A stretch of DNA of 64,000 bases from Sphingobacterium faecale (GCF_016746095.1 NZ_JAERTY010000013.1:62001-126000); one strand, 5' to 3'. Shown: positions 45,886 to 63,835, counted from the first letter of the stretch. Translations and numbers: made by a program. Notes: generated by a model from the sequence alone, not told the origin.

Positions 45886-47211
45886 ATGAGCTATACACGA
45901 AGAAAATTTTTACAATATGCCGGAGTTTCGGCAGTAGGAGGTGTTTTGGCCTCACATACAGTGCTAGGAGCGGATCTGCTGTCTGCAAACAACAGTAACA
46001 CGCTGCGAGTCGGTCTGGTCGGCTGTGGTGGGCGCGGTACAGCCGCAGCAGTCGAAGCGCTCAATGCGGACCCCAACGTGGTGCTTACCGCGATGGGCGA
46101 TGCCTTTGAGGATCACCTTTCCACGTCATTCCAGACGCTTAGCACAAAGATGGGTAAAAAAGTACAGGTGCCCTCCGGGAGCCGGTTTGTAGGGCTCGAT
46201 GCCTATCAGAAGGTCATCGGTTCTGATGTGGACGTGGTTATCCTAGCGGCACCTCCGGCATTCCGTCCGGCACATCTGGAGGCGGCGGTTTCAGCGGGCA
46301 AGCACATCTTCTGTGAAAAGCCCTTTGCGGTGGACGGCCCCGGTCTGCGCCGTGTCATTGCCGCAGCCCAGAAGGCCAAGGCTTCCGGGCTTGCTCTGGT
46401 TGCGGGTTTCTGCTGGCGTTACCACCAGCCCAAGCGTGAGACCTTCGGCAAGGTGCTCAATGGGCAGATCGGCAATATCCTGACGGCAGAATCCACCTAT
46501 AATACGGGGGAGCTCTGGTATAAGGAGCGGGAACCGGGCTGGTCCGATTTTGAATACCAGCTCCGCAACTGGCTTTATTATAACTGGCTTTCGGGCGATC
46601 ATATCGTCGAGCAGGCCATCCACAGCATGGACATGATGCAATGGGCGCTGGGCGACCGCCTTCCGTTGCGTGTGACTGCCAGCGGTGGCCGGCAGAAGCG
46701 AACAGATGCCCGCTTTGGTAATGTCTACGACCACTTTTCTGCGGTGTACGAGTATGGTGACGGTACCAAGAGCTATTTTTCCTGCCGTCAGCAGAACGGC
46801 ACCTCGCCTTCTTATGCGGTAGAGCTGTTCGGCGACCGGGGGCGCTGTCTGGTCGACTGCCGGACGGGGGAGCATATCATTACCGGACAGACCCCCTGGA
46901 AATACAGCGATGATACAAAGTTTACGGACGACAAGTCATACGAGAAAAAAACGGCCTCCCGGGGTATGTACCAGCAGGAGCATGACGAGCTCTTTGCATC
47001 GATCCGCAAAGGCAGTCCCCGTTACGATGGCGACTGGATGGTCAAAGCCAACCTGATGGCCCTTGCAGGGCGCGATGCGGGTTACAGCGGGCAGACCGTG
47101 GTACTTGACGATGTGCTGCGTTCGGAAAGGGTTCTTTTTCCGGCCCATGTTTCCTGGGATATGAAGTATGATATCCCCGTAGCAGTTCCCGGTTCTTCTA
47201 TATTAAAATAA
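45886..47211 (+). CDS. Tat-exported Gfo/Idh/MocA-family oxidoreductase
   Basis: A 441-residue protein starting with a twin-arginine signal (SYTRRKFLQYAGV). The NAD(P)-binding site LRVGLVGCGGRGTAA lies at about 40-54 and the family motif CEKPFAVD at 143-150. The C-terminal alpha/beta domain has SGDHIVEQAIHSMDMMQWALG. Exported members include NAD-dependent glycosidases of GH109 type as well as glucoside dehydrogenases, so either role is possible. From about 46000 its GC content is far higher than in the surrounding genes, and it shares this with the next gene, suggesting transfer or recombination. Confidence 0.88.
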   Translation: MSYTRRKFLQYAGVSAVGGVLASHTVLGADLLSANNSNTLRVGLVGCGGRGTAAAVEALNADPNVVLTAMGDAFEDHLSTSFQTLSTKMGKKVQVPSGSRFVGLDAYQKVIGSDVDVVILAAPPAFRPAHLEAAVSAGKHIFCEKPFAVDGPGLRRVIAAAQKAKASGLALVAGFCWRYHQPKRETFGKVLNGQIGNILTAESTYNTGELWYKEREPGWSDFEYQLRNWLYYNWLSGDHIVEQAIHSMDMMQWALGDRLPLRVTASGGRQKRTDARFGNVYDHFSAVYEYGDGTKSYFSCRQQNGTSPSYAVELFGDRGRCLVDCRTGEHIITGQTPWKYSDDTKFTDDKSYEKKTASRGMYQQEHDELFASIRKGSPRYDGDWMVKANLMALAGRDAGYSGQTVVLDDVLRSERVLFPAHVSWDMKYDIPVAVPGSSILK

Positions 47212-47216
47212 CAGTT

Positions 47217-48122
47217 ATGATAAGAAAAGATTTCATAAAAAGTGCTTCCCTGCTGCTCGGCGGGGCTGCACTTACCCCGCTATCAGCTCTTACAGCGGCT
47301 CCTACCGTAGGTACGGGACCATTGGTGCTTAAAAAGGCACTCGGTTACGCGATGATAGAAGAAGACCTTCCGCTTGTGGACAAGCTGATGCTTGTCCGCG
47401 ATCTGGGCTTCGATGGGGTAGAGTTCAACAGTCCTTTGGATTTCGGTATTGACGAGATCCTGCGTGCAAAAGAGAAGTCCGGCATACAGACAGCCAGCAC
47501 CGTCAATAAGGACCACTGGTCCAAACCCCTTTCCGATCCGGATGCCACCAAAAGATCGTTTATCGTAGATTCTATTGCCCGCTCACTGGAGGAGACACGG
47601 CAGCTTGGCGGAGATACGGTACTGGTAGTACCGGGAGTGGTCAACGACAAGGTATCTTATGAACAGGCCTACCGTACGGCCCAGGATTCGATCCGGCAGC
47701 TTATTCCGTATGTCGAAAAGACCGGTGTAAAAGTGGGCCTGGAAAATGTGTGGAACAATTTTATCCTGAGTCCGGTGGAAGCCAAGCGCTTTGTCGAGGA
47801 GATCGGCCATCCCCTTATCGGCTGGTATTTTGATATAGGCAATGTGCTTCGTTACGGCTGGCCCGAACACTGGATACAGACGCTGGGCAGTCATATTTTC
47901 AAGCTTCATATCAAAGAGTTCAGCCGTGAGAAGATGAACAAAGAGGGGCTCTGGAAAGGATTTGATGTAGAGATCGGCAGAGGGGACATCAATTGGCCTG
48001 CTGTAATGCAGTCGCTCCGCGAGGTGGGGCATAGCGGAGGCTGGATTACGGCCGAGGTAAAGGGAGGCGATCGCCACCATCTCCGGAAGATAGCCCTACA
48101 GATAGATGAAGTGATGAAGTAA
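47217..48122 (+). CDS. TIM-barrel sugar phosphate isomerase/epimerase-like protein, exported
   Basis: A 301-residue protein with a signal segment (KSASLLLGGAALTPLSALTA). The body is the xylose-isomerase-like TIM barrel (AP_endonuc_2), with probable metal ligands in VGLENVWNN, WYFDIGNV, FKLHIKEF and ITAEVKGGD. It starts 5 nt after the Gfo/Idh/MocA gene and shares its GC-rich composition. The two are a recurring pair in Bacteroidota sugar loci and may act on a keto sugar. It ends just before a strong terminator. Confidence 0.87.
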   Translation: MIRKDFIKSASLLLGGAALTPLSALTAAPTVGTGPLVLKKALGYAMIEEDLPLVDKLMLVRDLGFDGVEFNSPLDFGIDEILRAKEKSGIQTASTVNKDHWSKPLSDPDATKRSFIVDSIARSLEETRQLGGDTVLVVPGVVNDKVSYEQAYRTAQDSIRQLIPYVEKTGVKVGLENVWNNFILSPVEAKRFVEEIGHPLIGWYFDIGNVLRYGWPEHWIQTLGSHIFKLHIKEFSREKMNKEGLWKGFDVEIGRGDINWPAVMQSLREVGHSGGWITAEVKGGDRHHLRKIALQIDEVMK

Positions 48123-48285: not shown

Positions 48286-48885
48286 ATGATACTGCAAGAT
48301 ATAAATGGCGAAAAAGAGCTACTTCAGCGCATCGCTCTAGGGGATGAAGTAGCTTTTGTTAAAGTTTTTCGTCATTATCAGGATCCCGTTTTTAAGGTCG
48401 TTTACAGCTATCTAAAATCCACCGCACTTTCTGAAGAAGTATTGCAGGATATTTTTTTGAAGGTATGGCAGAAACGGGAGACCCTTGCTGATTTAGACAG
48501 TTTTAAAAACTGGTTGTTTATCGTGAGCCGCAATTACTTGGTCAACTATCTTCAAAAGCTTGCTAAGGATAAGGCGATGAGAGAACAGTGGATTACCGAA
48601 CAGCCTATTTACGAGAATTCTACAGATTACCGTCTTCGCGAAAAACACCTAGCTACCTATTTGCAGGAGATTATCAACCGATTGCCCCAGCAACAGCGCT
48701 TGGTATTCCAGTTGGCCAAAGAACAGTTTTTGACGTATGCCGAGATTGCCGAAGAGCTTGGCATTTCTCCTGGTACTGTACGCATACATATGAGTAGAGC
48801 GTTGGGCAATATCCGTGAAGAACTTAAGCAACACGGCATGGAATACCTGTTGTTGTATATCGTCACTTACCCTATTCTAAAATAA
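48286..48885 (+). CDS. ECF RNA polymerase sigma factor
   Basis: A 199-residue ECF sigma factor. Region 2: FVKVFRHYQDPVFKVVYSYL, LSEEVLQDIFLKVWQKRE and FKNWLFIVSRNYLVNYLQ. Region 4: LPQQQRLVFQLAKEQFLTY followed by AEIAEELGISPGTVRIHM. It is followed on the same strand by a FecR gene and an STN-type SusC, and should activate that operon. Confidence 0.93.
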   Translation: MILQDINGEKELLQRIALGDEVAFVKVFRHYQDPVFKVVYSYLKSTALSEEVLQDIFLKVWQKRETLADLDSFKNWLFIVSRNYLVNYLQKLAKDKAMREQWITEQPIYENSTDYRLREKHLATYLQEIINRLPQQQRLVFQLAKEQFLTYAEIAEELGISPGTVRIHMSRALGNIREELKQHGMEYLLLYIVTYPILK

Positions 48886-48981
48886 TTTTAAAAAAAATGC
48901 AACCTTCAGTATGAGGGCTGTCTGTTCTAACTGTCTTTACGTATAGATTGGGGATATAATGATCTTCAAGATTATAAACGT

Positions 48982-50175
48982 ATGAGACAAGAAGACCGAT
49001 TTGAGCTACTATTACAGTCCTATTTAGCGGACGAATTGAGTGTTGAGGAGATAGATGAATTCTTTACCTATGTAGAAGAGACCAGCTATCAGTTACGACT
49101 TCAAGCTGCCATTGATGCCTCCTTCCTACAACCAGATTCTAATGGACCCAGTCTGTCTGTCAATAGACTACGTTCTATAGAAAATCAGATATTAGGAAGG
49201 ACTACCAGACGCTTACCTTCTCTCTCTTGGCGTATAGCCGCGGCTTGTATTATCCTAGCCCTATCCGGTTTGACCGTATGGAAAGTGTTTTTTACATCCA
49301 CAGCCCTAAATGACCCATATGAAGTAGTTTATCAGAGGGGTGAGCAGATTACAGCCCCATCGGATCAACAAGCCTATATCACGCTGGCCGATGGTCGATC
49401 TGTTATATTAGACAGTCTATCTATAGATCCTTCGCTCGGTAGTGATTTGCGGAGGACGGCGGAAGGCGTCCGTTATGACGTTTCCGAAGAGGGATTAAAC
49501 CCTATAACCTACAATACCCTGACCAATCCCCGCGGCAGTAAAATTGTACAGTTGGTATTGAGCGATGGTACAAAAGTATGGCTTAATGCCGGCAGCAGTC
49601 TACGTTACCCTACACGATTTGCACTAGGCGATAGATCCGTGTATTTAGAAGGAGAGGGTTATTTTGACGTGCAGCATGATCAAAAACGTCCTTTTTTTGT
49701 AAAGCATAGTACCCTTGAAGTACAAGTGCTGGGTACGCAGTTCAATATGAGCGTTTATAAAGACGATTCCCAGCACAAGGTTGCTCTACTGGAAGGAAGC
49801 GTAAAGCTCCAAGCAACCCATGCCCAAGGGCAAGGACATATATCCCCCGTTTTATTATCCCCTGGAACAGCGGCCAGCATAAGACGTGGCGACCAGAAAT
49901 TTGCACTGAGTCAGGTGAGCTTAGGCCAGATAGGAGCATGGAAGGATGGACGCTTTGATTTTGAAGGGGTCGAACTTAAAGATGCGATGCGGCAGATCGC
50001 CCGTTGGTATGATATTGACGTACACTATGAAGGTACGTTGCCCCAGCTGGTTTTATCTGGAGACATCGACAGAACGACCAGTCTCAAGAGCTTTCTTATG
50101 ATATTACGATCATTAGGGCTATCCCTGCGTTTCGAAAACCGTGTACTTACTATTTATAACGAAAACCAATCCTAA
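48982..50175 (+). CDS. FecR-family anti-sigma factor
   Basis: A 397-residue inner-membrane anti-sigma factor: cytoplasmic helices (1-70), TM helix (about residues 78-98), FecR domain (LSDGTKVWLNAGSSLRYP and LEGEGYFDVQHDQKRPF) and DUF4974 (about 320-397). It begins 96 nt after the sigma gene and its stop is only 4 nt from the chosen SusC start, so the two are tightly coupled. Confidence 0.93.
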   Translation: MRQEDRFELLLQSYLADELSVEEIDEFFTYVEETSYQLRLQAAIDASFLQPDSNGPSLSVNRLRSIENQILGRTTRRLPSLSWRIAAACIILALSGLTVWKVFFTSTALNDPYEVVYQRGEQITAPSDQQAYITLADGRSVILDSLSIDPSLGSDLRRTAEGVRYDVSEEGLNPITYNTLTNPRGSKIVQLVLSDGTKVWLNAGSSLRYPTRFALGDRSVYLEGEGYFDVQHDQKRPFFVKHSTLEVQVLGTQFNMSVYKDDSQHKVALLEGSVKLQATHAQGQGHISPVLLSPGTAASIRRGDQKFALSQVSLGQIGAWKDGRFDFEGVELKDAMRQIARWYDIDVHYEGTLPQLVLSGDIDRTTSLKSFLMILRSLGLSLRFENRVLTIYNENQS

Positions 50176-50179
50176 TATT

Positions 50180-53100
50180 ATGCAACTGTTGTTTATTAGA
50201 TTTTATTATGCCACAGCATGGCTAAATCCAAATCGATGGCGTACTTTCAGTCCGTTTTTATGGAGACTGTTCGGTTTATTTTTGTTGTTCTCAGGTCATG
50301 CGTTTGGGCAGGAGATCAATATAAAAAACAGCCCACTGAGTCTCAAGCAGGTATTTGATGAAATACGTGAACAGACGGGCTTTAAAGTCCTAGCCAATCA
50401 AAATCTCTTCTTGGAGGTACCCCAGGTACGGGTACCTACCGAGCGGATGTCTCTCCTTGATTTTTTAGAAGCATTGTCTAAGACCGCTCCTTTACAATTC
50501 AGTGTACATGAGAAGAATGTGACTTTTACCTATACAGCGACTAAGCGTAAGGCTGTGGAGAATTCTAGTTTCGTAATACCCAAAAGGCAGGAAAATGATA
50601 CGGTAAAAGGGATGTTGTTGAATAATAGCTATCAACCTATAGTAGGAGCGAGTATTAGTGTGGTGGGTAAGCTCAAGGGGACAACTTCCAATAACAAAGG
50701 CGAGTTCCAATTATTGGTCAAGGATGGTGAGTCTATCGATATCACTATGATGGGCTTAGAATCTGCTCGTTTGGTACGCAGGGGAGGTGCTGTGCAGTTG
50801 GTGAGGAAAGAGAGAAAAGATAGTCTGGATGTCACCAATGTACAAGAAGCTGTTTTGCTGAATTCCTTAAAAGGAGCGATGGCTTTACTTCTTCCGCTGA
50901 GCACCTCGTCCTTGGACGAAGTGCAGGTTATTGCCTATGGTCGACAGTCGAGGCGCTATAGTACAGGTAACGTGGTAATGATAGGAGCAGAGGAAATAGA
51001 AAAGCAACCTGTGATGAATCCCTTGTTGGCATTGCAGGGGCGGGTTGCTGGACTCATTATTCAACCCACTTCTACACATTCCAGTGCACCCATCAAAGTC
51101 GAGCTCCGCGGTAAGAAAAGCCTTAACCCCAATGCACTTACCGAACCCCTGTATATAGTTGATGGTGTGCCTATCAATGTGCTGGCGGCGCCTAGGACAT
51201 GGTCTTATAGTCAAGGAGTTTCCCCCGGCCTAATTCAGGATGGAATGTCTATGACAGATGGGCAGAGCCCTTTATTCCATATCAATCCCAAGGATATCGA
51301 AAGTATTTCGGTGTTGAAGGATGGCGATGCCACCGCAATCTATGGATCTAGAGCAGCTAATGGGGTTATTCTTATTACGACTAAAAAGGGACAGGTAGGA
51401 GAGCCGCGACTTAATGTTAATATTACACATGGCTCTATCACCGTTTCAAAATTCCCGAGACTGTTATCTCTACATCAATATCTAGAAGTGCGACGAGAAG
51501 CCCTGGTGAATGACGGTATTATTCCCACCCCCGAAAATGCTCCCGATTTAACTGTTTGGGACTCTTCTAGATCTGAAGATTGGATGAGACGATTATCCAA
51601 TGAAGGTTACCAGAGTGAATTGAGTCTCGGCATTAATGGGGGAGATCAGCGCACGACCTACCGTCTGAATGGTAATTTTACTAAGAATAAAGACTTGTAT
51701 AATTACAAAGGTGGAAATCAGATAGGTAATATTTCACTGGATTTAATGAATAATGCGTATAACAATAGATTGACCACCAATCTAAGTGTTAAGTATTCAA
51801 AAAGTAAAACCGATGCTATTGTTGCTTTCCAGGATGAAGCATTGCAAGCACCTAATGCCCCCGCTGTATTTGATGACTCTGGCAATCTCAATTTTTCGGA
51901 ATGGAATCATTTGGGGCTCCCTGGTTATGAACATCCTTTTGGATACCTCTTGCGGCCTAATATAATTAATACAGACAATCTAATGGCCTCATTGAATTTT
52001 AATGTTAATATTCTAAAGGGGCTTGATTTAGAGCTTTTAACTAGTTACAATGATTCTAAGGCTAAAAGCAATATTTTAAATCCTCATGCTTCAAGAGACC
52101 CTCAGTCTTACCCGTTGTCATTATCTTTCTTTAATAAGACAGATGTTAAGGGCGTAATGATCGAACCCAAAATCTCTTATAGAACGTATTTTTTAGGAGG
52201 TAATCTGAATACATTATTGGGGACCAGTTATCAGGCTAGCTCTACCGATGTCGAGACTTTAGGGGGATATTTTGAATCGGATGATATGATGCATAGTATC
52301 AATAATGCGTTTCTGAAAGACATCACCACGCAGTTTTCTGAATATAGGTATGCGTCGGTATTTGTACGCTTAAATTACCAATGGCAGAATAGATATATCC
52401 TAAATCTTAACGGTCGTAGAGATGGATCTTCACGTTTTGCTCCAGGAAAGCAGTTTGGTCTTTTCGGTTCCGTGGGACTGGCATGGTTGATGTCTGAAGA
52501 GAAATGGTTGCAGAATAGATTACCTATTTGGGTCACCCTTATCAAATTAAGAGGGAGCCATGCTTTGACAGGAACTGACAATGTGGGTGATTATAGGTAT
52601 TTGAGCCTGTACTCTACTACTGGTCACAATAATTATACTCCATTTCACCCTTATGATGGCATGCAACCATATGTACCCAATGGACCATTTGATATGCAGT
52701 ATCGTTGGGAATCATCAAAATCTTCTGAAATCGCTTTAGATCTAGGTTTCCTGGATGACCGGATTAATTTTAATACTGCCCTTTCTGAAATCAGATCAGG
52801 GTCTCAGCTGACAGATATTCCGATCCCTGTATATACTGGTTTCTCGAGTGTTACCACTAATTGGGCTGCTGATATTCAGAACAAAACTTTGGAATTTACA
52901 CTACAGGCGAGTGCTATTAAAAAGTCAGACTGGACGTTGAATATTAATTTAAATTGGGCAAAAAACATTAATAAGTTGATTTCCTATCCAGGTTTGGAGG
53001 ATTCTCCTTATGCGAATATTTATAGTATAGGCCGATCTACCAATACCCGTTATGATTTAAATTATATAGGGGTAGATCCATTGACCGGTAAATATGCTGC

Positions 53101-53641
53101 AGAAGATTATAACGGCGATGGTTTTGTTACAGTAAATTTGTCAAAAAAGCCAGGTATAGATGACGATCGTTATTTAGCCTTTGATATGAACCCCCGGTAT
53201 GCTGGAGGGTTCGGATTTAATCTGTATTGGAAGTCCTTAGGTCTATCTTCCCAATTTTCATACTCTAGACAATTGGGAAATAATCCCGTGCTTGCTTTGA
53301 GATATGGCATTCTGAAGAATGCTATATATTCCAAGGGACTTTTAGAAGACCATTGGCGGTATCCCGGAGATCAAGCCACCTTTGCCAAGTTTACGACAGA
53401 AACCTTAGAAATTCCTACAACACCTGTTGATGCCTCGTTCTTATCGTGGAATAATATTTCTGTTTCTTACAGTTTGGGAGATCAGATATTGAAAAAAATA
53501 CGGGTAAAAAATTTGAGTCTTGCTCTAAATGTTCAAAACTTGTATAAGTGGACGGCATATGTCGCCGAACCAGAAATAAAGCAAGGATCCCTTATTCCTA
53601 TTCCTCGGACTTTTGTGGGAAGTTTAAATATTGGGTTTTAA
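50180..53641 (+). CDS. SusC/RagA TonB-dependent transporter with STN signalling domain
   Basis: Start chosen at 50180 (MQLLFIRFYYATAWLNP), 4 nt after the FecR stop; an upstream in-frame ATG at 50141 lies inside the FecR gene. The product of about 1153 residues has a signal ending near HAFGQ, an STN domain (SPLSLKQVFDEIREQTGFKV), a carboxypeptidase-regulatory-like domain, a SusC signature shifted to LDEVQVIAYGRQSRR, plug ISVLKDGDATAIYGSRAANG and a barrel ending in GSLNIGF. A longer than usual linker lies between the regulatory domain and the plug. It heads the operon containing the GldG-like and MutS-like genes. Confidence 0.92.
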   Translation: MQLLFIRFYYATAWLNPNRWRTFSPFLWRLFGLFLLFSGHAFGQEINIKNSPLSLKQVFDEIREQTGFKVLANQNLFLEVPQVRVPTERMSLLDFLEALSKTAPLQFSVHEKNVTFTYTATKRKAVENSSFVIPKRQENDTVKGMLLNNSYQPIVGASISVVGKLKGTTSNNKGEFQLLVKDGESIDITMMGLESARLVRRGGAVQLVRKERKDSLDVTNVQEAVLLNSLKGAMALLLPLSTSSLDEVQVIAYGRQSRRYSTGNVVMIGAEEIEKQPVMNPLLALQGRVAGLIIQPTSTHSSAPIKVELRGKKSLNPNALTEPLYIVDGVPINVLAAPRTWSYSQGVSPGLIQDGMSMTDGQSPLFHINPKDIESISVLKDGDATAIYGSRAANGVILITTKKGQVGEPRLNVNITHGSITVSKFPRLLSLHQYLEVRREALVNDGIIPTPENAPDLTVWDSSRSEDWMRRLSNEGYQSELSLGINGGDQRTTYRLNGNFTKNKDLYNYKGGNQIGNISLDLMNNAYNNRLTTNLSVKYSKSKTDAIVAFQDEALQAPNAPAVFDDSGNLNFSEWNHLGLPGYEHPFGYLLRPNIINTDNLMASLNFNVNILKGLDLELLTSYNDSKAKSNILNPHASRDPQSYPLSLSFFNKTDVKGVMIEPKISYRTYFLGGNLNTLLGTSYQASSTDVETLGGYFESDDMMHSINNAFLKDITTQFSEYRYASVFVRLNYQWQNRYILNLNGRRDGSSRFAPGKQFGLFGSVGLAWLMSEEKWLQNRLPIWVTLIKLRGSHALTGTDNVGDYRYLSLYSTTGHNNYTPFHPYDGMQPYVPNGPFDMQYRWESSKSSEIALDLGFLDDRINFNTALSEIRSGSQLTDIPIPVYTGFSSVTTNWAADIQNKTLEFTLQASAIKKSDWTLNINLNWAKNINKLISYPGLEDSPYANIYSIGRSTNTRYDLNYIGVDPLTGKYAAEDYNGDGFVTVNLSKKPGIDDDRYLAFDMNPRYAGGFGFNLYWKSLGLSSQFSYSRQLGNNPVLALRYGILKNAIYSKGLLEDHWRYPGDQATFAKFTTETLEIPTTPVDASFLSWNNISVSYSLGDQILKKIRVKNLSLALNVQNLYKWTAYVAEPEIKQGSLIPIPRTFVGSLNIGF

Positions 53642-53649
53642 AATATCAG

Positions 53650-53716
53650 TTATGAAATACTCATGTTGAGCAAAGCACAAAAAACCATGAGCATTCCATT
53701 CCGATTAATTGGAACA
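53650..53716 (+). repeat. conserved intergenic hairpin element, copy B
   Basis: The first 42 nt (53650-53691) match copy A at 28111-28152 at 33 of 42 positions. CTCATG and CATGAG near its ends can pair over a 20-nt loop, and a near-palindrome TTCCGATTAATTGGAA follows. It lies 8 nt after the SusC stop and before SusD. Confidence 0.55.
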
Positions 53717-53799
53717 AGGTAATGACAGATAAGGAGCAAACGTGCTTGCGAGCTCATTTATATAGACGATACCAAACACACATGAATAATTATACACAT

Positions 53800-55272
53800 A
53801 TGAGAAAAGTCAACCTAATAACAGTAGTTGGTCTGATCGTAACAACCTCTCTTTACAGTTGTACAAAGTGGTTGGTGATTGACGAACCGAAGGATGCAAT
53901 AGCGCAAGTGAAAATGTTTGCGACAGAAAAACAAGCTGAAAATGCATTGATGGGGATATACAATTATTTGATCCACGGCACTTCGGGATCTTCTATTGCA
54001 TCGAATGTTTTTTCCGGTGGACTATCCACCATAGCAGGATCTAGCTCTTCTTATGAATTAATTCCATCAGATGTGGGTTCTGGTGGGATGCCGGTATTGT
54101 GGCAGCTAAATAAAGAAAAATCAGCTGCGCTATGGACATCAGCCTATCAAGCGATTTTTTTGGCTAATGCAACCATAGAGGGAATCTCGAAATCTCAGTC
54201 CAATGAACTGAGAGATAGTGTAAAGCGACAATTTATTGCGGAGGCTAAATTTTGGAGAGCGTTTTCACATTTATATCTTATTCAATTCTTTGGCGATGTT
54301 CCGTTAGTCTTAACCAGTGATTTTAATCAGACACGAACTTATAGACGAACACCACAGGATCAGGTTTACCATCAGATTTTAATTGATTTACAGGAAGCCG
54401 AGCACGATTTACCCAGGACATTCGCTGCAGGTTCGGGTCAGCGTGTTCGAGTTAATGCTTGGGCTGCTACAGCCTTGCTAGCCCGAGTTTATCTGTATAT
54501 CCGCGATTATACGACAGCGATTTCTAAGGCAACTGAAGTCATAACGGCAACACATTTATTTAATATGCCTAAACTTTCCGACTCATTTCTGGCTAATAGT
54601 CATGAGGCTATCTTACAACTATTGCCCACTAATATGTATAGTGATCTGCTTAATGCTACACCCGAGGGCTATACCTTTTTACCTTCTCCTTTAAATACCG
54701 GAAATATCTATTATCGTCTTTCTGATCATTTGTTGGAGGCTTTTGAGCTTGGTGATCAGCGTCAGGAACAATGGATAGGCCTTACAGACCGTACAGCTTC
54801 ACAACTGCCATCTCCCACATCAGTTCACTTTCCTTTTAAGTACAAACAGGGGATATACAACGGTGCGCTAGGAGCACCTTCTCCCGAATACTATACGGTA
54901 TTACGACTTGCTGAGATGTATTTAATCCGTGCCGAAGCAGCACTGATTGATCCCAGTGGGGATATTTCTGCAGCACGTGCAGATTTAAATAAAATTCGTA
55001 GCCGCGCCGGTTTAACCGATCTGCCATTAACATTAGATCGGCAGGAATTGATTGCATCTCTCTGGCAGGAGCGCCAAGTTGAGTTCTTTGTTGAATGGGG
55101 ACATTATTGGATAGATATATGTCGGAATGGGAGTGCGCGACATATCCTTTCTAACGTCTCGGTAAATACGCCATGGTTGGGGGATTGGCAACTTCTATAT
55201 CCTATTCCTGAGGATGAAATCAAAAACAATAAAAACATAATTCAAAATGAAGGCTATGATCAGGTTCGTTAA
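53800..55272 (+). CDS. SusD/RagB-family lipoprotein
   Basis: Start chosen at 53800, where MRKVNLITVVGLIVTTSLYSC gives a compact lipoprotein signal (Cys21); ATGs at 53782 and 53722 only add a polar extension. The roughly 490-residue product has SusD landmarks: EAKFWRAFSHLYLIQFFGDV, NAWAATALLARVYLYIRD, VLRLAEMYLIRAEAAL and VEFFVEWGHYWIDICR, ending in YPIPEDEIKNNKNI. It pairs with the SusC upstream. Confidence 0.9.
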   Translation: MRKVNLITVVGLIVTTSLYSCTKWLVIDEPKDAIAQVKMFATEKQAENALMGIYNYLIHGTSGSSIASNVFSGGLSTIAGSSSSYELIPSDVGSGGMPVLWQLNKEKSAALWTSAYQAIFLANATIEGISKSQSNELRDSVKRQFIAEAKFWRAFSHLYLIQFFGDVPLVLTSDFNQTRTYRRTPQDQVYHQILIDLQEAEHDLPRTFAAGSGQRVRVNAWAATALLARVYLYIRDYTTAISKATEVITATHLFNMPKLSDSFLANSHEAILQLLPTNMYSDLLNATPEGYTFLPSPLNTGNIYYRLSDHLLEAFELGDQRQEQWIGLTDRTASQLPSPTSVHFPFKYKQGIYNGALGAPSPEYYTVLRLAEMYLIRAEAALIDPSGDISAARADLNKIRSRAGLTDLPLTLDRQELIASLWQERQVEFFVEWGHYWIDICRNGSARHILSNVSVNTPWLGDWQLLYPIPEDEIKNNKNIIQNEGYDQVR

Positions 55273-56017
55273 CAGTCGCTGTAATATATTAGTTTTGCTC
55301 GGCTTATTCTGTCTTTTCTCTTGTAAGGAGGAAGAAAAATCCCCCCAACAGATAAGTTCCCTAACCCTTGTACATGCGGTCGTCAACGCAGGTACCCTTA
55401 AGACTAATTTTAAAGGTCGGGAACCTATCCGATACACGACTGCCAATGGGGTCAACTACGGCATTTGGAACACTGGGTCAGGCCAGTATACGATCAGTTC
55501 TAAAAATAAACAATTGGGGCTTTTTCATGTTCCGGATACTTTGGTCGATAGTAAGCCGTTTTTTTTAATACCGCTAGAAGTCGGCTACTCACCGTTACAG
55601 ACTCTTTTTCTAACCGGGACATTACAGAACCCGGAATATAGACTGGTAAACGAACAATTGCCCCGATTATCCCCTGCGGATAGTATTGTAGGCGTAAGGT
55701 TCGTTCATCTAGCGCCGGACCAGCCGGCTGTGAACATCTATCTCAGGGGAGCGGTTTTGCAAGAGAAAATAGGGTACAGGGATAATGTTACAAATAATTT
55801 TCATCTGCTCTCTGCTAAGAAAAGCCAACCCGAGTATGTCTTTGAATTTAGAGATGCGACTACGGACGAATTATTGAATGAGTATCGGTTTGATCCTTCT
55901 GATGAATCTCTTGATCGGAATATCTACCGCAATCGTTGCATCAGTTTGGTGTTAACAGGGGGGCCGCACAAGTTGACAAGTCCTCAGTTTTCTACGATTT
56001 TAGTACACCACTTTTAA
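55247..56017 (+). CDS. DUF4397-like lipoprotein
   Basis: A 256-residue lipoprotein with lipobox FSC (Cys26). It overlaps the SusD stop by 26 bp (ATG at 55256 also possible). The middle block VRFVHLAPDQPAVNIYLRG resembles the DUF4397 repeat opening ('RfvHasPdapaVDvyv'); a weaker first copy may precede it. The fold is predicted beta. It probably sits at the cell surface or in the periplasm beside SusD. The family match is moderate. Confidence 0.65.
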   Translation: MKAMIRFVNSRCNILVLLGLFCLFSCKEEEKSPQQISSLTLVHAVVNAGTLKTNFKGREPIRYTTANGVNYGIWNTGSGQYTISSKNKQLGLFHVPDTLVDSKPFFLIPLEVGYSPLQTLFLTGTLQNPEYRLVNEQLPRLSPADSIVGVRFVHLAPDQPAVNIYLRGAVLQEKIGYRDNVTNNFHLLSAKKSQPEYVFEFRDATTDELLNEYRFDPSDESLDRNIYRNRCISLVLTGGPHKLTSPQFSTILVHHF

Positions 56018-56035
56018 ATAACTATAAACTACGAT

Positions 56036-56953
56036 ATGAGTATTTTAATAACAGAAAACCTGTCCCATAAATATGGGGCAGGCTGGGCTATCCGTGACAT
56101 TAATATCGATATTCCACAAAAAGGAGCTTATGGACTACTAGGGGCTAACGGCGCCGGTAAATCCACTCTGATGAATATTATATGTGGTGCACTCAAGCCG
56201 ACCGATGGACGTGTAATAGTCAATGGGATAGATCTAAGAAAGGAACCACAGCGTGCCAAGACCTCGATAGGTTTCCTACCCCAAATACTTCCTTTGTACT
56301 TAGATCTTAGTGTAGAAGAGTATCTACGCTACACAGCTAGTCTGCGACTCGTGGATAAGAAAAATATAGATAGAGCTGTAGAAGAAGTGCTAGAACGTTG
56401 TCAGATTACGCATTTTAGACGACGTCTTTTAAAAAATCTATCTGGAGGATACCGGCAGCGAGTTGGTATTGCGCAAGCGATCATCCATAAGCCACTGTTG
56501 GTGGTGATGGACGAGCCTACTAATGGTCTGGATCCGAATCAATTGATAGAAACGCGTAGACTCATACAGGAAGTAGCAGAGCAAAGCCTCGTACTTTTGT
56601 CTTCCCATATTCTAACAGAAATAGGTCAACTGTGTCAAGAAATCATTCTCATTGATAAAGGAGAACTTTTGTTTTCCGACAGTGCATCAGCCTTTCAACA
56701 GCAGGTCCAATCTACCTATTTACAGGTTATATTTGATAATCCGCCCCCTATCGAACAGCTTAGTCAGCTAGTTGGAGTTAATGCAGTAGATATGGAATCA
56801 AAAGGTAGTTATAGAATATCCTACGACAATCTGGACATGCTGACACAGCAATTATTAGAACTATCGATACAAAAGGGCTGGAAGTTGAAGACCATAAGAC
56901 CAGTCGAGAATAGTATGGATGAAGTATTTAAGGAATTAACCAATAAAAGATAA
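56036..56953 (+). CDS. ABC transporter ATP-binding protein (export type)
   Basis: A 305-residue ATPase: Walker A GANGAGKST (36-44), signature LSGGYRQRVG (135-144), Walker B LLVVMDEPTNGLDP (Asp159, Glu160), switch His in SSH. A C-terminal extension of about 90 residues follows, as in NatA/GldA/NosF-like exporters. It lies 18 nt after the DUF4397-like gene and 6 nt before the permease/GldG gene, so it powers that protein. Confidence 0.93.
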   Translation: MSILITENLSHKYGAGWAIRDINIDIPQKGAYGLLGANGAGKSTLMNIICGALKPTDGRVIVNGIDLRKEPQRAKTSIGFLPQILPLYLDLSVEEYLRYTASLRLVDKKNIDRAVEEVLERCQITHFRRRLLKNLSGGYRQRVGIAQAIIHKPLLVVMDEPTNGLDPNQLIETRRLIQEVAEQSLVLLSSHILTEIGQLCQEIILIDKGELLFSDSASAFQQQVQSTYLQVIFDNPPPIEQLSQLVGVNAVDMESKGSYRISYDNLDMLTQQLLELSIQKGWKLKTIRPVENSMDEVFKELTNKR

Positions 56954-56959
56954 AACACA

Positions 56960-59317
56960 ATGAAACTGATCCTTCGAATTGCAAAAGAAGAGTTGAGACA
57001 ATTATTCTTTTCACCAATAGCATGGTTTTTACTAATTGCTTTTATCCCTCTATGCTCCTTTTCATATTATATGATTGTAGAAGCTTTGAGCACGTGGCAG
57101 GACACATTGTTGGCAAATGATACTTCATTTACTGGTTTTCATGCAGGTTTGTCAAAAACAATTTTTACAGAATCGCTCTATCCGAGGGTTTTCCAACATT
57201 TATATCTTTTTTTTCCACTTCTGACGATGTCCATTATCAGTAAAGAAGAGGGAGCTGGTACTATTCGTTTATTACAATCATCTCCGTTGAAAATGAGTGA
57301 AATATTGTTGGGCAAGTATCTTTCTTTATTGACTTTTACTTTGATCCTAATCCTTATTGTTGGTGGTTTCGTTATTTGTGGGACACTTTCAATTTCGAAT
57401 GTGGATCTAGGGTATTTGCTACCCAGTCTCCTAGCCATGTTTTTGATGTCGGCCTGCTATATTGCGATAGGGATGTATTTCAGTAGTCTTACAGTATATC
57501 CGGTTATTTCGGCTCTGGCCACTTTCCTCACTTTATTCGTGTTGGGGAATATTTCATCCCTATGGCAACAGTATGATTTTTTCAGAGAGTTAACGTTCTT
57601 CTTGTCGATTTCTGGACGAGCCGAGAAAATGGTATTGGGTCTGATCACATCTTATGATCTAATCTATTATCTTTCGATTTGTATATTGTTCTTATCGCTT
57701 ACTTGGCTTCGCATGCAACGGTCCATCGAATCCAGACCTTGGTCTATTTCACTTTTGAAACATATTGCTATCATCTTCCCTATATTGGTCATTGGTTACC
57801 TCTCTATGAGGCCTGCTCTTCGTTATTATATAGATACCACAGCCAATAAGGATAATACCATTAAAACAACAAGTCAAAAGATTTTGGCTGACTTTCGTGA
57901 GGAGGAGCCACTGAAAGTGACATTTTATGTCAATCTTTTGAGCCCCGTCTATGATCGTGCATCCCCTGCTAATAGAAATGAATATGTTTGGAGTTTTTGG
58001 GAACGATACGTTCGTTTCAAACCTGATATTCAATTTGACTATATATACTATTATGATGTTAAAGATGGGGATAATACACTTTTTAACACTTACAAAAACA
58101 AGACTTTAGAGGAAATAGCTGAGCTTCAGATGGAAGGCCGGGGTAATAAGTCTGGTATTAGAGGCTTTGTAACTCCGGACTCTATTCGTAGTCTAGGCGA
58201 TTATCAGGAGGAGTATGGTATGCCCTTTATTAAATTGGAGTATGGGGAGCGATCCACTATTATACGAACCTTTTCAGATCCGGATTTTTGGCCGGATGAA
58301 ATGCAGGTATCCTCAGCTTTTAGAAGGCTGCAAAGACAACAGCCCCCGAAGGCGCTTTTTGCTACTGGTAATTTAGAGCGAAATGTTTATAAGAAAGGAG
58401 AAAGGGAATATTACGGACATACTATTGATCGTACGTTGCGTACTTCGCTGATTAATCTAGCTTTCGATGTTGATTCTATCAATTTGGATGTCCAAGAGAT
58501 ACCAGAGGGGACAGATATGTTAATTGTAGCGGATCCTAAGACAAGATTAAGTGGTGCCAAGATCGATAAAATAAAGAAGTTTGCAGATCAGGGAGGTAAT
58601 ATCAGTATTTTTGGTGAGCCTGATAAGCAGATGATCCTCAATCCTTTACTTGATACGTTGAATACAGGTGTATCCTTACTATCTGGTCGTTTGATCGAGG
58701 TTACTTATGATGAGATGGCCGACCATATTTGGCCGTTTAGTATTCCCGAAACTATTAGCTCACTTGCTCCTGATTATTTTTCTTCACTGATAGAAAAGAT
58801 AGGTGATGAGATGAAGATTGATAGTGCAGCGTTGTATCGTAAATTGGTGGGTGCTACAGCCATTACTTATGATCAACACAAATCTCTTTATACCATAGAA
58901 CCTTTGTCCCAAACACAAGCTCAGCGTAATACCTTCCTGAAACAGGGGAGGGTAGTTCTCGATTCCGTACCGCCATTATTTGAGCCTGATCGAGGAGATA
59001 TTCTGCAACCCAACTTTGATGTTTGGTTAAAGTTGATTAGAGAGACTAATGGTAATGTACAGCGTATTTCTATTCACGGGGATGCCGACGTAGGTAGCAC
59101 GATGCGTTCTCGCCCAATGGAAGATTTGTTGCCGATTTACAGTTGGATGACAGACAATCTGTTTCCCGTCGTTATCCGTGAAGCGAAACGTGAAGACATC
59201 TTTCTCAAATTGACGGCTGCAACAGCCGGTATCCAAAAGACCGTGATGTTATACATACTTCCTGGTTTACTATTACTTTTTTCCATCGTATTTTTAATTC
59301 GCCGTAATCGCCAATAG
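56960..59317 (+). CDS. ABC-2 permease fused to GldG-like auxiliary domain
   Basis: A 785-residue protein. The first 290 residues contain about seven hydrophobic helices with the ABC-2 layout and a GldF-type EEGAGTIRLLQSSPLKMSEI loop. From about 300 to 755 there is a large periplasmic domain with the GldG/ABC_transp_aux pattern: a nucleoside-amidohydrolase-like fold with LKVTFYVNLLSP, ALFATGNLERN and DMLIVADPKTRLSGAKIDKI, and one C-terminal TM helix (about 762-782). In gliding bacteria GldF and GldG are separate genes that work with GldA; here they are fused and inside a SusCD operon. Confidence 0.85.
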   Translation: MKLILRIAKEELRQLFFSPIAWFLLIAFIPLCSFSYYMIVEALSTWQDTLLANDTSFTGFHAGLSKTIFTESLYPRVFQHLYLFFPLLTMSIISKEEGAGTIRLLQSSPLKMSEILLGKYLSLLTFTLILILIVGGFVICGTLSISNVDLGYLLPSLLAMFLMSACYIAIGMYFSSLTVYPVISALATFLTLFVLGNISSLWQQYDFFRELTFFLSISGRAEKMVLGLITSYDLIYYLSICILFLSLTWLRMQRSIESRPWSISLLKHIAIIFPILVIGYLSMRPALRYYIDTTANKDNTIKTTSQKILADFREEEPLKVTFYVNLLSPVYDRASPANRNEYVWSFWERYVRFKPDIQFDYIYYYDVKDGDNTLFNTYKNKTLEEIAELQMEGRGNKSGIRGFVTPDSIRSLGDYQEEYGMPFIKLEYGERSTIIRTFSDPDFWPDEMQVSSAFRRLQRQQPPKALFATGNLERNVYKKGEREYYGHTIDRTLRTSLINLAFDVDSINLDVQEIPEGTDMLIVADPKTRLSGAKIDKIKKFADQGGNISIFGEPDKQMILNPLLDTLNTGVSLLSGRLIEVTYDEMADHIWPFSIPETISSLAPDYFSSLIEKIGDEMKIDSAALYRKLVGATAITYDQHKSLYTIEPLSQTQAQRNTFLKQGRVVLDSVPPLFEPDRGDILQPNFDVWLKLIRETNGNVQRISIHGDADVGSTMRSRPMEDLLPIYSWMTDNLFPVVIREAKREDIFLKLTAATAGIQKTVMLYILPGLLLLFSIVFLIRRNRQ

Positions 59318-59318
59318 T

Positions 59319-60623
59319 ATGAAGCCATTATTAGAGATTGATGAACAGAGTCGTGCTGATTTAGGGCTAATGGGGGATTTGAGAAATTCCCCACTATTCA
59401 AACTTTTTGATCATGCCTATACACGTGGTGGTATGCAATATTTGCAACAGTTATTTTTGAATCCATTATCAAGTGAAGAAGAAATCAAAATCCGTATCCG
59501 TATGTTTTCATACCTTTCGGCAATCGATCTTGATTTTCCTTTTCCGTCCCATCTTTTTGATACCTTAGAACGCTATATGCAGCATTCGCAGGCGCAGGAA
59601 CAAGAGCGCGAAGCTATATATCTACAGGATAAAGAGATAGAAGATGGAGTATTTGCTATGTTGCACCTGTTACACAAGGTAGAAAGCTTCTTTCATTCCG
59701 ATGCTGCAATGAAAGCCGTAGGACTGGAGGAACTTGTCACTTCCGTATTATCGATATTGAGCCTGCCATCACTACAACCGATATTGGGTGTTTCTAATAG
59801 TAAGGCTTTGTCTTACAGTTCTATCGTTGCCTATGATACCTTATTCCGAAGTATTGCCTGGACCGAGATAAGAACGTTGTTGCAATATCTGTACCGTCTG
59901 GATGCCTATCTAGCGGTTGGAAAAATCGCCTCAAAGCCAGGTTGGACATTACCTACCGTTTTACCGAGAGCGACTGGCGTATTGCGTGCCAATGGACTAT
60001 ATTACCCAACAATCAAAGGAGCTGTCGCCAATAGTTTTGAATTTAGTAAAGAAAAACGTTTGCTATTTTTGACTGGAGCCAATATGGCAGGAAAGAGCAC
60101 TTTTCTACGCTCATTGGCACTTGCTCTTTATATAGCCCACCTCGGATTTCCGGTTCCCGCAGATAGTATGGAGTTTTCTGTCCTTGACGGTATATTTACG
60201 ACGATAAACCTCCCTGATGATCTAGGCATGGGGGCCAGTCATTTTTATGTAGAAGTATTGCGGGTCAAGGATGTAGTAGAGAGTCTGCGAGCAGGTAAAT
60301 CCATTTTCGTAATATTCGACGAACTATTCCGAGGTACCAATGTGAAAGACGCGATGGAAGCAACTATTGCTGTCAGTCGGCGTTTTCTTCAATCGGAAAA
60401 CAGTCATTTTGTGATATCATCCCATATTGTGGAGGCTGCTGATGCGTTGCGTGAAGAAGGCACAATCGGATTTCAGTTCCTACCTACGAAGATGGAGGGG
60501 CACCATCCGGTCTATACCTATACGTTAGAAGATGGAGTGAGCGATGACCGCCATGGTATGCTTATTATACAAAATGAGCAAATATTAAGTATTCTGGAGA
60601 AAGGAGTAACACATGAAATTTAA
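59319..60623 (+). CDS. MutS-family ATPase lacking mismatch-recognition domains, copy 1
   Basis: A 434-residue protein starting 1 nt after the GldFG gene. Its C-terminal half is a MutS ATPase domain: Walker A GANMAGKST (253-261), Walker B VIFDELFRGTN (Asp334, Glu335), then SSHIVEAADAL. The N-terminal half is helical, like the core/lever domain. The mismatch-binding domain I and connector domain II of true MutS are absent, and DELFRGT replaces the DEIGRGT of MutS. The stop overlaps the next MutS-like gene by 11 bp. A repair role is doubtful; the partner and substrate are unknown. Confidence 0.85.
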   Translation: MKPLLEIDEQSRADLGLMGDLRNSPLFKLFDHAYTRGGMQYLQQLFLNPLSSEEEIKIRIRMFSYLSAIDLDFPFPSHLFDTLERYMQHSQAQEQEREAIYLQDKEIEDGVFAMLHLLHKVESFFHSDAAMKAVGLEELVTSVLSILSLPSLQPILGVSNSKALSYSSIVAYDTLFRSIAWTEIRTLLQYLYRLDAYLAVGKIASKPGWTLPTVLPRATGVLRANGLYYPTIKGAVANSFEFSKEKRLLFLTGANMAGKSTFLRSLALALYIAHLGFPVPADSMEFSVLDGIFTTINLPDDLGMGASHFYVEVLRVKDVVESLRAGKSIFVIFDELFRGTNVKDAMEATIAVSRRFLQSENSHFVISSHIVEAADALREEGTIGFQFLPTKMEGHHPVYTYTLEDGVSDDRHGMLIIQNEQILSILEKGVTHEI

Positions 60624-61923
60624 AATAGACCAACAGACGCTCGAAGAGCTTAACCTATTGGGACGATCTAAACCAGGTTCTGTCCAACAGCTGTTTTCCC
60701 GTGTTAAAAGCAGGGCGGGAGAGCAGCTACTGGACCGAATGTTTAAAACTCCTTTGATCGTTAAAGCTGAAATAGAGAATCGTATCAATTGCTTTCGCTT
60801 TTTTCAGCACAGGGATATCATATTTCCATTTGATAGCAAGGATCTATCTGAACTGACGGAATACTTTTCGCAGGTCTCTTCTCAAAGTACGATCAAAACT
60901 TATTTTCAGGTTTTTTGGAATCGCTTACTTGTTCGGGTATTGAACGATACGCGATTCAAGAAAGAATTGCAGGCATTACATGCACTGGTGTCGGTCTTAC
61001 AAAAATTAGATCAATTCCTACCGAAGCTTGGAGATATACCCAGTCCTATGTCACAGCGTATCGAAGTCATGCGACAACAAATACAGTCTGGGGTTTTTAG
61101 AGAGTTAGTTGCAAGCAATATCTACGAAGGCTTCAATGTAGGGCAGATTGCCCGTTATCAACAACAGCTTCGGGGTAGACTATCGAAAGATGTGCAGGGT
61201 ATCCTATCATTCATAGCCGAGCTCGACGTTTATATTGCGGTCAGTAATGTAGCAAGGGAGCGCAATTTCACTTATCCTATCGTTCAGGCAGCAGAGACCA
61301 ATATCTGGAAAGGAACTGATCTCAGGCATCCCGCTATTGAACATGCTGTGGGTAATGATTTTCATTTGGGTCAAGAGTGTAACCTTTTTTTCTTAACAGG
61401 AGCCAATATGGCTGGCAAATCCACTTGGATGAAGACCTTGGGTATATCTCTTTATCTTGCTCATATGGGATTCCCAGTTGCTGCAAAATCCTATGAGTTT
61501 TCTGTCAGAGAGGGGATGTATTCATCCATCAATGTGGCCGACAATGTTGCTTTAGGCTATAGTCATTTCTACTCGGAGGTAATACGGGTCAAGCAAGCCG
61601 CTGAAGCCGTAGCGTCAGGTGCCCGACTGGTGTTATTCTTCGATGAGCTCTTTAAAGGAACCAATGTTAAGGATGCCTTTGATGGTACCTTAGCTGTAAC
61701 ACGTGGCTTTGCACGTTACCGGCAATCACTTTTTATGATCTCTACACATATTATCGAAGTGGGTGAAGAATTAAAAGAGCTGCCCGGTATTCAGTTTGGC
61801 TTTATGCCTACCATTATGAATGGACACCGGCCTCAATATACCTATACGCTCAAAGAAGGAATTACAGAAGATCGACAAGGTATGATGATCATACGTAATG
61901 AAGGAATTCTGGATTTAATTTAG
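60613..61923 (+). CDS. MutS-family ATPase lacking mismatch-recognition domains, copy 2
   Basis: A 436-residue paralogue of the preceding gene. Walker A GANMAGKST (263-271), Walker B LFFDELFKGTN (Asp344, Glu345) and STHIIEVGEEL are conserved, and both proteins end in a TYTL..G..DR.GM.II.NE pattern. The N-terminal helical half has diverged strongly. Overlap with copy 1 suggests a heterodimer, as MutS ATPases act as dimers with two composite sites; this is inference. It is followed 20 nt later by the S41 peptidase. Confidence 0.85.
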   Translation: MKFKIDQQTLEELNLLGRSKPGSVQQLFSRVKSRAGEQLLDRMFKTPLIVKAEIENRINCFRFFQHRDIIFPFDSKDLSELTEYFSQVSSQSTIKTYFQVFWNRLLVRVLNDTRFKKELQALHALVSVLQKLDQFLPKLGDIPSPMSQRIEVMRQQIQSGVFRELVASNIYEGFNVGQIARYQQQLRGRLSKDVQGILSFIAELDVYIAVSNVARERNFTYPIVQAAETNIWKGTDLRHPAIEHAVGNDFHLGQECNLFFLTGANMAGKSTWMKTLGISLYLAHMGFPVAAKSYEFSVREGMYSSINVADNVALGYSHFYSEVIRVKQAAEAVASGARLVLFFDELFKGTNVKDAFDGTLAVTRGFARYRQSLFMISTHIIEVGEELKELPGIQFGFMPTIMNGHRPQYTYTLKEGITEDRQGMMIIRNEGILDLI

Positions 61924-61943
61924 AAAATATAAATACATAAACC

Positions 61944-63416
61944 ATGAGAAAATTACTTTTAATTTCCCTGATTTTTATCGGGCTGGGACAGCTATGGGCT
62001 CAGGAAGATAAGGACTTTTTGTTGACCAAAGAAAGAATCATAGCAGATTTTAAGCTGGCATCAGATATTTTGAAGAAACAGCATCCGCACCCTTACAAGT
62101 TTGTTGATTCCGTCCGGTTGGACCAACAATTGGACTCTTTGATGCATCTCGCTCAACAAGAAGAAGATGTCTATGCTATATTACAATATTCTCCTTTGCA
62201 ACTATTTAGAGACGTACATACCAAGCTACAGCTATCCGCCGAAAACTCAAAGCAGACTATACGTCATACTCGGTTTTTTCCCTTCCCGGTTATCATCGAG
62301 AAGGGGCGTATATTTGTAAATAGTAGAGGTGGCTCTATCCCGTATGGAGCCGAAGTGCTGACAGTAAATGGGCAACCCTCATCCATTATCATGCAGATGC
62401 TTGCTCCCAACTCGTACAGTGACGGTTTTATTAAGACAGGTACTGACCGTTTTTATGGTGATTTTCAAGGGGTCTGGGGGTATAACAATGCTAGTCCAAA
62501 GAACTATACAATACGCTATCGTCCTGCTGATGGCAACAAAGATCAGGAGCAGGTGGTCCCTGCACTGGATCCTTCAAAAGGAGTGCATAGTAGCAGGCTT
62601 GGTATTGCGCCGTTTAACCGTTTGGAGACTTCGTATTATGTGTACGGTACCTATCTTGACGAGGAGAGCACCGGCATCCTTACCGTTCTCTCCTTTGCTC
62701 TTGATGAGTCTTTTGCGTATAAAGAATTTAGTGATTTCTTTAACGAGGTAAAGAAAAGAAATATTCGTAATGTAATCATTGATATTCGTAGCAATGGAGG
62801 AGGCAATCCTGCGATTTCGGCACTATTGTATTCATTCCTGGCACCCAAGTCATTCGATAATGTTTACAATCAGCGTACTAAGACTATTGATATAGCTTAT
62901 CCGGAGTATACGATTAATAATGGGCGGAGAATGTCTGATGAAGATATACGAAATATGTACAATTTTATGAATCAGCGATTTAATAAAGATTCACTGACAG
63001 GGTTTTATGTCGGTAATGCCCGGCTAAAGGAAAGCCAACTCGAAAACTACCCGCCAGATAAAGACGCTTTTAACGGTAGTGTATATGTACTCACCAGTGG
63101 AGCTACGGTGTCGGCCGCTACTTATTTTGCATCCTTGGTCCAGAAGAACAAGCGTGGACTGGTGATAGGCAAAGAAACCGGTAGTGGCGAGCAGAGTACC
63201 ACAGCAGCTTGGTTCTTGAACTACCAGTTGCCCAATACCAAATCTATCTTGACGATCCCGATGTCCGAGATGTACTTTTTCAATGCGCAGACTGATAATG
63301 GCAGAGGGGTGATGCCCGACCGGGAGCTGTCGATGGAAGAATTTTTGAAATATTTCCGCTCCGAACAGGATCCGGAGATCAGCTATACCAGAGCGTTGAT
63401 AAAGCAGGGCACCTAA
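61944..63416 (+). CDS. exported S41-family serine peptidase
   Basis: A 490-residue exported protein (signal ending in LWAQ). The C-terminal half is the S41 (C-terminal-processing-peptidase/tricorn-core) fold: IIDIRSNGGGNPAISALLYS (about 278-297), TSGATVSAATYF with candidate nucleophile Ser390, and IGKETGSGEQSTT. FRDVHTKL (His92) is a typical family histidine. A PDZ-like piece lies at about 120-160. It would cut peptides or proteins in the periplasm. As the last gene of the operon it could process a peptide taken up by SusC/SusD. Confidence 0.85.
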   Translation: MRKLLLISLIFIGLGQLWAQEDKDFLLTKERIIADFKLASDILKKQHPHPYKFVDSVRLDQQLDSLMHLAQQEEDVYAILQYSPLQLFRDVHTKLQLSAENSKQTIRHTRFFPFPVIIEKGRIFVNSRGGSIPYGAEVLTVNGQPSSIIMQMLAPNSYSDGFIKTGTDRFYGDFQGVWGYNNASPKNYTIRYRPADGNKDQEQVVPALDPSKGVHSSRLGIAPFNRLETSYYVYGTYLDEESTGILTVLSFALDESFAYKEFSDFFNEVKKRNIRNVIIDIRSNGGGNPAISALLYSFLAPKSFDNVYNQRTKTIDIAYPEYTINNGRRMSDEDIRNMYNFMNQRFNKDSLTGFYVGNARLKESQLENYPPDKDAFNGSVYVLTSGATVSAATYFASLVQKNKRGLVIGKETGSGEQSTTAAWFLNYQLPNTKSILTIPMSEMYFFNAQTDNGRGVMPDRELSMEEFLKYFRSEQDPEISYTRALIKQGT

Positions 63417-63548: not shown

Positions 63549-63572
63549 AGCGCTGCCCTTTTGAGCAGCGCT
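63549..63572 (+). terminator. probable terminator of the GldG/MutS/S41 operon
   Basis: AGCGCTGC (63549-63556) pairs with GCAGCGCT (63565-63572) around an 8-nt loop and is followed by a partly T-rich stretch. It is 133 nt after the S41 stop. Confidence 0.5.
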
Positions 63573-63802: not shown

Positions 63803-63835
63803 GTGCTTAATTCGCTAATTCCACTGTCCTGTTTT

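Follow-up and report, generated by a model that had tools for sequence, protein, structure and literature searches.

Why does an outer-membrane nutrient importer share an operon with an inner-membrane ABC machine and two MutS-like ATPases? SusCD systems are the dominant route of nutrient uptake in Bacteroidota. To our knowledge, it is often unknown how their products cross the inner membrane, and the role of ABC-GldFG complexes has long been open. In Sphingobacterium faecale, one of the Bacteroidota (genome size 5.4 Mb), all these parts lie in one operon. We analysed this operon in a window of 64,000 nt (the whole stretch of DNA under study; contig C4, 62001-126000) and compared it with its relatives within and outside the genome.

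The operon and its genes

The operon consists of ten genes on the + strand (48286-63416 of the window), in the order sigma-FecR-SusC-SusD-lipoprotein-ABC-GldFG-MutS1-MutS2-S41. The four genes from ABC to MutS2 are called the cassette below.

48286-48885, + strand: ECF sigma factor, Bacteroidetes family (TIGR02985 137.2 bits, cut-off 126.4)
48982-50175, + strand: FecR-type anti-sigma factor (PF04773 3.4e-19, PF16344 6.6e-11)
50180-53641, + strand: SusC/RagA TonB-dependent outer-membrane transporter with an N-terminal extension, STN-like by eye (TIGR04056 535.7 bits, cut-off 368)
53722-55272, + strand: SusD lipoprotein (PF14322 2.4e-25, PF07980 7.5e-22)
55247-56017, + strand: DUF4397 lipoprotein, accessory (PF14344 1e-8)
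56036-56953, + strand: cassette gene 1, GldA/DrrA-like ABC ATPase, motifs intact (TIGR03522 255.8 bits, cut-off 402.6)
56960-59317, + strand: cassette gene 2, GldF-GldG-like fusion (PF12679, PF09822; GldF TIGR03518 70.3 bits, cut-off 288.5)
59319-60623, + strand: cassette gene 3, MutS1, MutS core ATPase (domains III+V), DELFRGTN (PF00488 102.9 bits)
60613-61923, + strand: cassette gene 4, partner in the MutS2 position, MutS core ATPase, DELFKGTN (PF00488, MutS_V, 82.3 bits)
61944-63416, + strand: S41-family periplasmic peptidase, variable 3' accessory gene (PF03572 3.9e-22)
63549-63572, + strand: terminator-like hairpin past the S41 stop (8-bp stem, 6 GC pairs)

From FecR to S41, the intergenic distances are 4, 158, -26, 18, 6, 1, -11 and 20 nt; the true translation start of SusD is probably 53800. 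An earlier note on this DNA had described eight tightly spaced genes on one strand, from SusC to the peptidase. All eight are in place, and Pfam and NCBIfam confirm their identities. The STN domain that the note assigned to SusC obtains no Pfam score and comes from reading the sequence, whereas SusC itself clears its TIGR04056 cut-off. The sigma and FecR genes, which the note placed before the operon, do lie there, but we count them inside the unit. The hairpin is a weak sign of a possible 3' end of the operon, as such hairpins are no commoner in the region than in shuffles. Promoter-like sites in the region occur at chance level.

The surroundings of the operon were read as well. Just upstream (45886-48122) lie two genes with Tat-like leaders, judged by eye to encode a Gfo/Idh-like oxidoreductase and a sugar-isomerase-like TIM-barrel protein. 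About 387 nt after S41 a second sigma-FecR-SusC-SusD operon starts on the same strand (window position 63803; L014:13804-19903), most of it beyond the window.

The grouping recurs across Bacteroidota

The S. faecale genome contains five tandem MutS-like pairs. All five are found in cassette operons with their own sigma/FecR genes and in a common order: sigma-FecR-SusC-SusD, one or two accessory proteins, then ABC-GldFG-MutS1-MutS2.

Outside this genome, an alignment of GldFG was searched against 84,980 species genomes. It found at least 543 relatives, and 80 loci were retained among the matches listed. Since the query was the GldFG fusion alone, the counts of neighbouring genes are not biased by the choice of loci. 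The ABC gene stands upstream of GldFG in all 70 outside loci with enough flank, and SusC plus SusD in 69 of the 70 testable ones. Two MutS-like genes come after GldFG in 67 of 69. Upstream, a FecR gene is present in 50 of 62 loci, and a sigma gene likewise in 50 of 62. The hosts include Chitinophaga, Pseudoflavitalea, Niastella, Flavitalea, Niabella, Pedobacter, Mucilaginibacter, Sphingobacterium and others; Pseudoflavitalea rhizosphaerae alone holds 11 of the retained loci. In a sample spread over the phylum, 11 of 395 genomes (S. faecale included) carry a full-length fusion at E < 1e-200.

The order of the genes can vary. In L147 the ABC-GldFG unit has moved between sigma and FecR (sigma-ABC-GldFG-FecR-SusC-SusD-M16). 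In L150 three of the cassette genes run ahead of FecR-SusCD (GldFG-MutS1-MutS2-FecR-SusC-SusD-S9). The linkage of cassette parts and SusCD thus outlasts the reordering of genes.

Could unrelated genes nevertheless have come together here by accident, or only recently and locally? The operon does include a variable accessory gene, and the trees of SusCD and cassette correlate modestly (see below). Yet five copies in one genome, about 67 to 70 of 70 outside loci and the rearranged loci refute this explanation, to which we assign next to no probability. The co-occurrence of MutS-like pair, GldFG fusion and SusCD, which the earlier note had made the touchstone of its proposal, holds across genomes. 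The five operons and the outside loci also support its central claim of one conserved system. We found no description of the combination, of its domains in this setting, or of GldFG or MutS with SusCD in the open-access literature, a coverage outside which most subscription papers and preprints lie.

The cassette is not always complete. No MutS pair is present in the loci of the f4 family that were read (L142-L146, L178), where the unit ends in an M16 peptidase, and the pair is also absent from L112, L118, L141, L147 and L148. Hence, the invariable element is the ABC-GldFG unit, which the MutS pair accompanies almost always in the Chitinophaga/Sphingobacterium lineages. It follows that the pair is dispensable for some of the work of the ABC-GldFG unit.

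Some loci carry additional genes. Two GldFG genes per locus occur in 16 of 80 loci. In L148 (SusC-SusD-DUF4843-PKD_2-GldFG-ABC-GldFG, no MutS) two fusions flank one ABC gene. Seven loci (L072, L080, L087, L093, L102, L103, L105) have a further ECF sigma gene within the operon, placed between SusD/lipoprotein and ABC. This gene encodes a C-terminal hydrophobic stretch in those read and is often found where two GldFG genes occur.

Receptor and cassette form two modules

Gene trees from 66-85 loci show that the cassette genes are co-inherited. The tree distances of ABC, GldFG, MutS1 and MutS2 correlate with each other at 0.71-0.90, and those of SusC and SusD at 0.80. Between the SusCD set and the cassette set the correlations reach only 0.27-0.49. 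The P. rhizosphaerae copies alone, which are few in number, split in a similar way. We read the high correlation within and low correlation between modules as a sign that one generic cassette has been combined with different receptor pairs.

The S. faecale genome has 122 SusD_RagB matches, about 117 of them outside the five cassette operons. Three loci of this genome (L203, L209, L218) are SusCD-DUF4843-PKD_2-TlpA operons without a cassette. Their lipoproteins are the same as in three sister cassette operons; the cassette therefore appears to have been added to a known operon type. The arrangement is modular: SusCD operons linked to sigma/FecR have taken in the cassette, whose receptor partners change from operon to operon.

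The MutS-like pair has lost the DNA-reading parts

MutS1 and MutS2 are each about 440 aa long. The predicted structure of MutS1 (pLDDT 88) aligns to the core and ATPase domains of MutS and MutSbeta, with the best match to MutSbeta (Z 35.2, 407 residues, 3.7 A). On E. coli MutS, the match covers only residues 261 to about 788. By our count, the stretch ahead of Walker A falls about 95 residues short of its E. coli MutS counterpart, which leaves little or no room for a clamp. Compared with the genome's own MutS (a frame itself incomplete at its start), N-terminal, internal and C-terminal stretches are uncovered.

The ATPase motifs are intact. Walker A reads GANMAGKS in all 156 MutS1 and MutS2 proteins. 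The Walker B region is DELFRGTN or DEMFRGTN in 81 of 81 MutS1 proteins and DELFKGTN in 75 of 75 MutS2 proteins, so that R or K separates the two without exception. In a quick tree all MutS1s form a single group. Relatives of equal size that occur singly in other Bacteroidota branch outside the pair in this tree, and eight of nine mostly solitary forms of this kind have K. MutS1 and MutS2 look like the products of one old duplication kept as two distinct subunits. The retention of two distinct subunits in turn suggests a heterodimer.

The solitary protein was seen at L167-L171 and L173-L175; in several f2 genomes it lies beside a dihydroorotase-like gene.

Three known families were considered for the pair and rejected. 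Mismatch repair MutS scores 134.8 bits (cut-off 480), and its mismatch-recognition domain I, clamp and C-terminal region are missing. The MutS2 endonuclease family scores 64-71 bits (cut-off 400), and the proteins end after the ATPase domain, without the C-terminal Smr/KOW domains. KamC, a reactivase ATPase, scores 96-99 bits for both proteins (cut-off 300), and the operon has no aminomutase gene as its partner.

The earlier note had called the two proteins DNA-repair-like. This label has to be corrected: they belong to a separate small MutS-like clade and have no mismatch domain, clamp region or C-terminal part, and a repair role is not indicated. The same losses weigh against the idea that the pair acts on DNA or RNA entering through SusC, in nucleic-acid uptake or repair. 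The MutS core fold speaks for such a role, but nucleases and helicases are absent from the frequent accessory families, and peptidases are enriched (see below). We consider nucleic acids a very improbable substrate.

The ABC-GldFG unit is not the gliding machine

The motifs of the ABC ATPase are intact in 85 of 85 homologues. The protein has a DrrA C-terminal domain, and its 255.8 bits against a GldA cut-off of 402.6 show that it is not GldA proper. GldFG consists of an ABC-2 permease, followed by a periplasmic GIFT-type domain (ABC_transp_aux) and a C-terminal transmembrane helix. In its predicted structure (pLDDT 86) the GldF half matches NosY (Foldseek E 3.6e-4) and the GldG half the GIFT domain of IFT52.

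The GldG halves of the cassette reach at most 40.8 bits (cut-off 389.9). The true GldFG of the genome lies elsewhere (C51), without SusCD, and its GldG scores 540.9 bits against the same cut-off. The gliding GldA-GldFG complex is ruled out for the cassette by scores far below the GldA, GldF and GldG cut-offs.

What could such a unit do? NosDFY uses ATP for conformational work in the periplasm, and by analogy ABC-GldFG may perform mechanical work of this type. One version of this idea is envelope maintenance or assembly. ABC-GldFG would then act mechanically on SusCD or partner lipoproteins, as NosDFY does on NosZ, without transporting nutrients, and the MutS pair would regulate it. The NosY and GIFT matches fit this picture, as does a generic cassette that pairs with different SusCD pairs. 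However, the roughly 117 SusD matches outside cassette operons imply that SusCD needs no such help in general. We rate envelope maintenance as unlikely.

ABC-2 permeases are mostly exporters, and DrrAB and LanFEG are exporters, too. The operon could thus import and eject, or confer immunity: SusCD would import or sense a toxic peptide or antibiotic, ABC-GldFG would export it, and the MutS pair would shield the cytosolic target. The DrrA/GldA-like ABC protein with its DrrA C-terminal domain, the usual direction of ABC-2 permeases and the occurrence of ABC-GldFG without MutS all favour export. Against it, the sampled operons contain no known resistance or biosynthesis genes. PADLOC anti-phage models match generic ATPase parts only. 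Moreover, encoding an importer pair alongside would run counter to a defensive purpose. Ejection or immunity therefore seems a doubtful function for the operon.

Accessory genes and the ligand

The accessory positions vary. The DUF4397 lipoprotein is replaced in sister operons by DUF4843+PKD_2, an S8 protein or other lipoproteins. The 3' gene is S41, M16, S1, S9, a thioredoxin or missing altogether, and an S41 relative is found in 15 of 80 outside loci. The S41 peptidase, which the earlier note counted as a member of the unit, is present at the window operon but does not belong to the core.

In 14 loci a family of lipoproteins of about 300 aa takes the DUF4397 place after SusD (L059, L063, L068, L072, L073, L075, L076, L080, L082, L090, L101, L102, L103, L116). 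The three tested (L059, L063, L090) have no Pfam match. These proteins were rejected as zinc peptidases, since those checked lack an HExxH motif and Pfam gave no match.

The 66 accessory proteins sampled from cassette operons include 25 peptidases (ten M16, nine S41, three S1 and one each of S8, S9 and M15), 17 thioredoxin-like proteins and one GH106. Measured against flanking SusCD pairs only, the peptidase excess was not significant (26/72 vs 1/10, p 0.15), so we drew a larger control from 39 ordinary SusCD pairs of the S. faecale genome, leaving out one further region that lay on the wrong side. The 76 proteins beside them include at least four peptidases, a lower bound taken from the top 25 families, and 11 thioredoxin-like proteins. 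Cassette operons are enriched in peptidases (25/66 vs at least 4/76, Fisher p 1.5e-6, or 8e-4 if ten control peptidases are assumed). The cassette sample was thinned by hand from many genomes and its related loci are not independent, whereas the control comes from one genome.

Several unrelated peptidase families at the same place favour a peptide-like ligand. The earlier note had proposed a peptide from S41 alone, and the enrichment lends this moderate support. On the other side, the nearest solved SusC and SusD (8aa4 and 9sje) are not the peptide transporter RagAB: the window SusC matches 8aa4 at E 4e-52 and RagA at 1e-39, and the sequences do not decide the ligand. Many cassette operons are also without any peptidase, and one sister operon ends in a GH106 rhamnosidase. 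The noted lack of a glycoside hydrolase accordingly applies to the window operon and not to every sister.

A polysaccharide utilization locus (PUL) was rejected, with no glycan-degrading enzyme in the window operon and one GH106 among the 66 sampled accessory proteins (top families).

A proposed mechanism and its significance

We propose an undescribed trans-envelope system: a TonB-dependent importer, an ABC-GldFG machine in the inner membrane and a MutS-core ATPase heterodimer would be induced by a ligand and act together as one unit, with MutS-type ATPases serving membrane traffic. We put the probability of this reading at roughly 0.35. Stated for transport, and just as tentatively, peptides would enter through TonB/SusCD, a NosFY/GldFG-like ABC machine would serve this uptake, and the MutS pair would assist that machine as an ATPase in the cytosol. 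The usual export role of ABC-2 permeases counts against this model.

A peptide-like ligand would bind SusD/SusC, which would signal through FecR and the sigma factor and switch the operon on. TonB would pull the ligand into the periplasm, where operon peptidases may trim and thioredoxins reduce it. With ATP from the cytosol, ABC-GldFG (NosFY-like, with a GIFT-type periplasmic domain) would either transport the product through the inner membrane or act on it mechanically in the periplasm. The two MutS-like proteins would pair up in the cytosol as an asymmetric ATPase dimer that works like a MutS-core switch or like a remodelling ATPase, though not on mismatches. The dimer may gate the ABC machine or take over the product.

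In this operon SusCD and ABC-GldFG are linked, together with a pair of MutS-type ATPases from which the DNA-reading parts are gone. Should the whole work as a single system, the function of GldFG-type ABC machines would become tractable, and the MutS fold would have a new job outside nucleic-acid or ribosome work. The system is common in many soil and water Bacteroidota and has cultured hosts, among them Sphingobacterium paucimobilis HER1398, whose operon (L096) shows 76% identity in GldFG.

Comparison with known systems

SusCD/RagAB uptake operons with ECF sigma/FecR are the closest match to the operon as a whole. SusC (TIGR04056) and SusD (PF07980/PF14322) are adjacent, as in RagAB-type operons, and SusC, SusD, the lipoprotein and sigma/FecR all score. 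Beyond these parts, the window operon has an ABC-GldFG unit for the inner membrane and a pair of MutS-like ATPases, and it lacks glycan-degrading enzymes.

With GldA-GldF-GldG of gliding motility, the cassette shares domain types and the GldF-GldG fusion form of the genome's own GldFG. It differs in falling far under the GldG and GldA cut-offs, and the true GldG is separate. The likeness to NosDFY concerns the permease half only, where the GldF half resembles the NosY fold; no NosD, NosL or NosZ is seen, and the periplasmic part is a GIFT-type domain.

MutS, MutS2 and KamC have the MutS core fold and the ATPase motifs in common with the pair. The pair, however, stays far below all three cut-offs and is always tandem in these operons. 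Its nearest relatives are the solitary 440-aa MutS-like proteins, alike in size and motifs (mostly DELFKGTN), but these are single copies with no adjoining GldFG or SusCD. What is new could be an inner module added to a SusCD system, and more than that if the MutS pair proves to act in membrane traffic.
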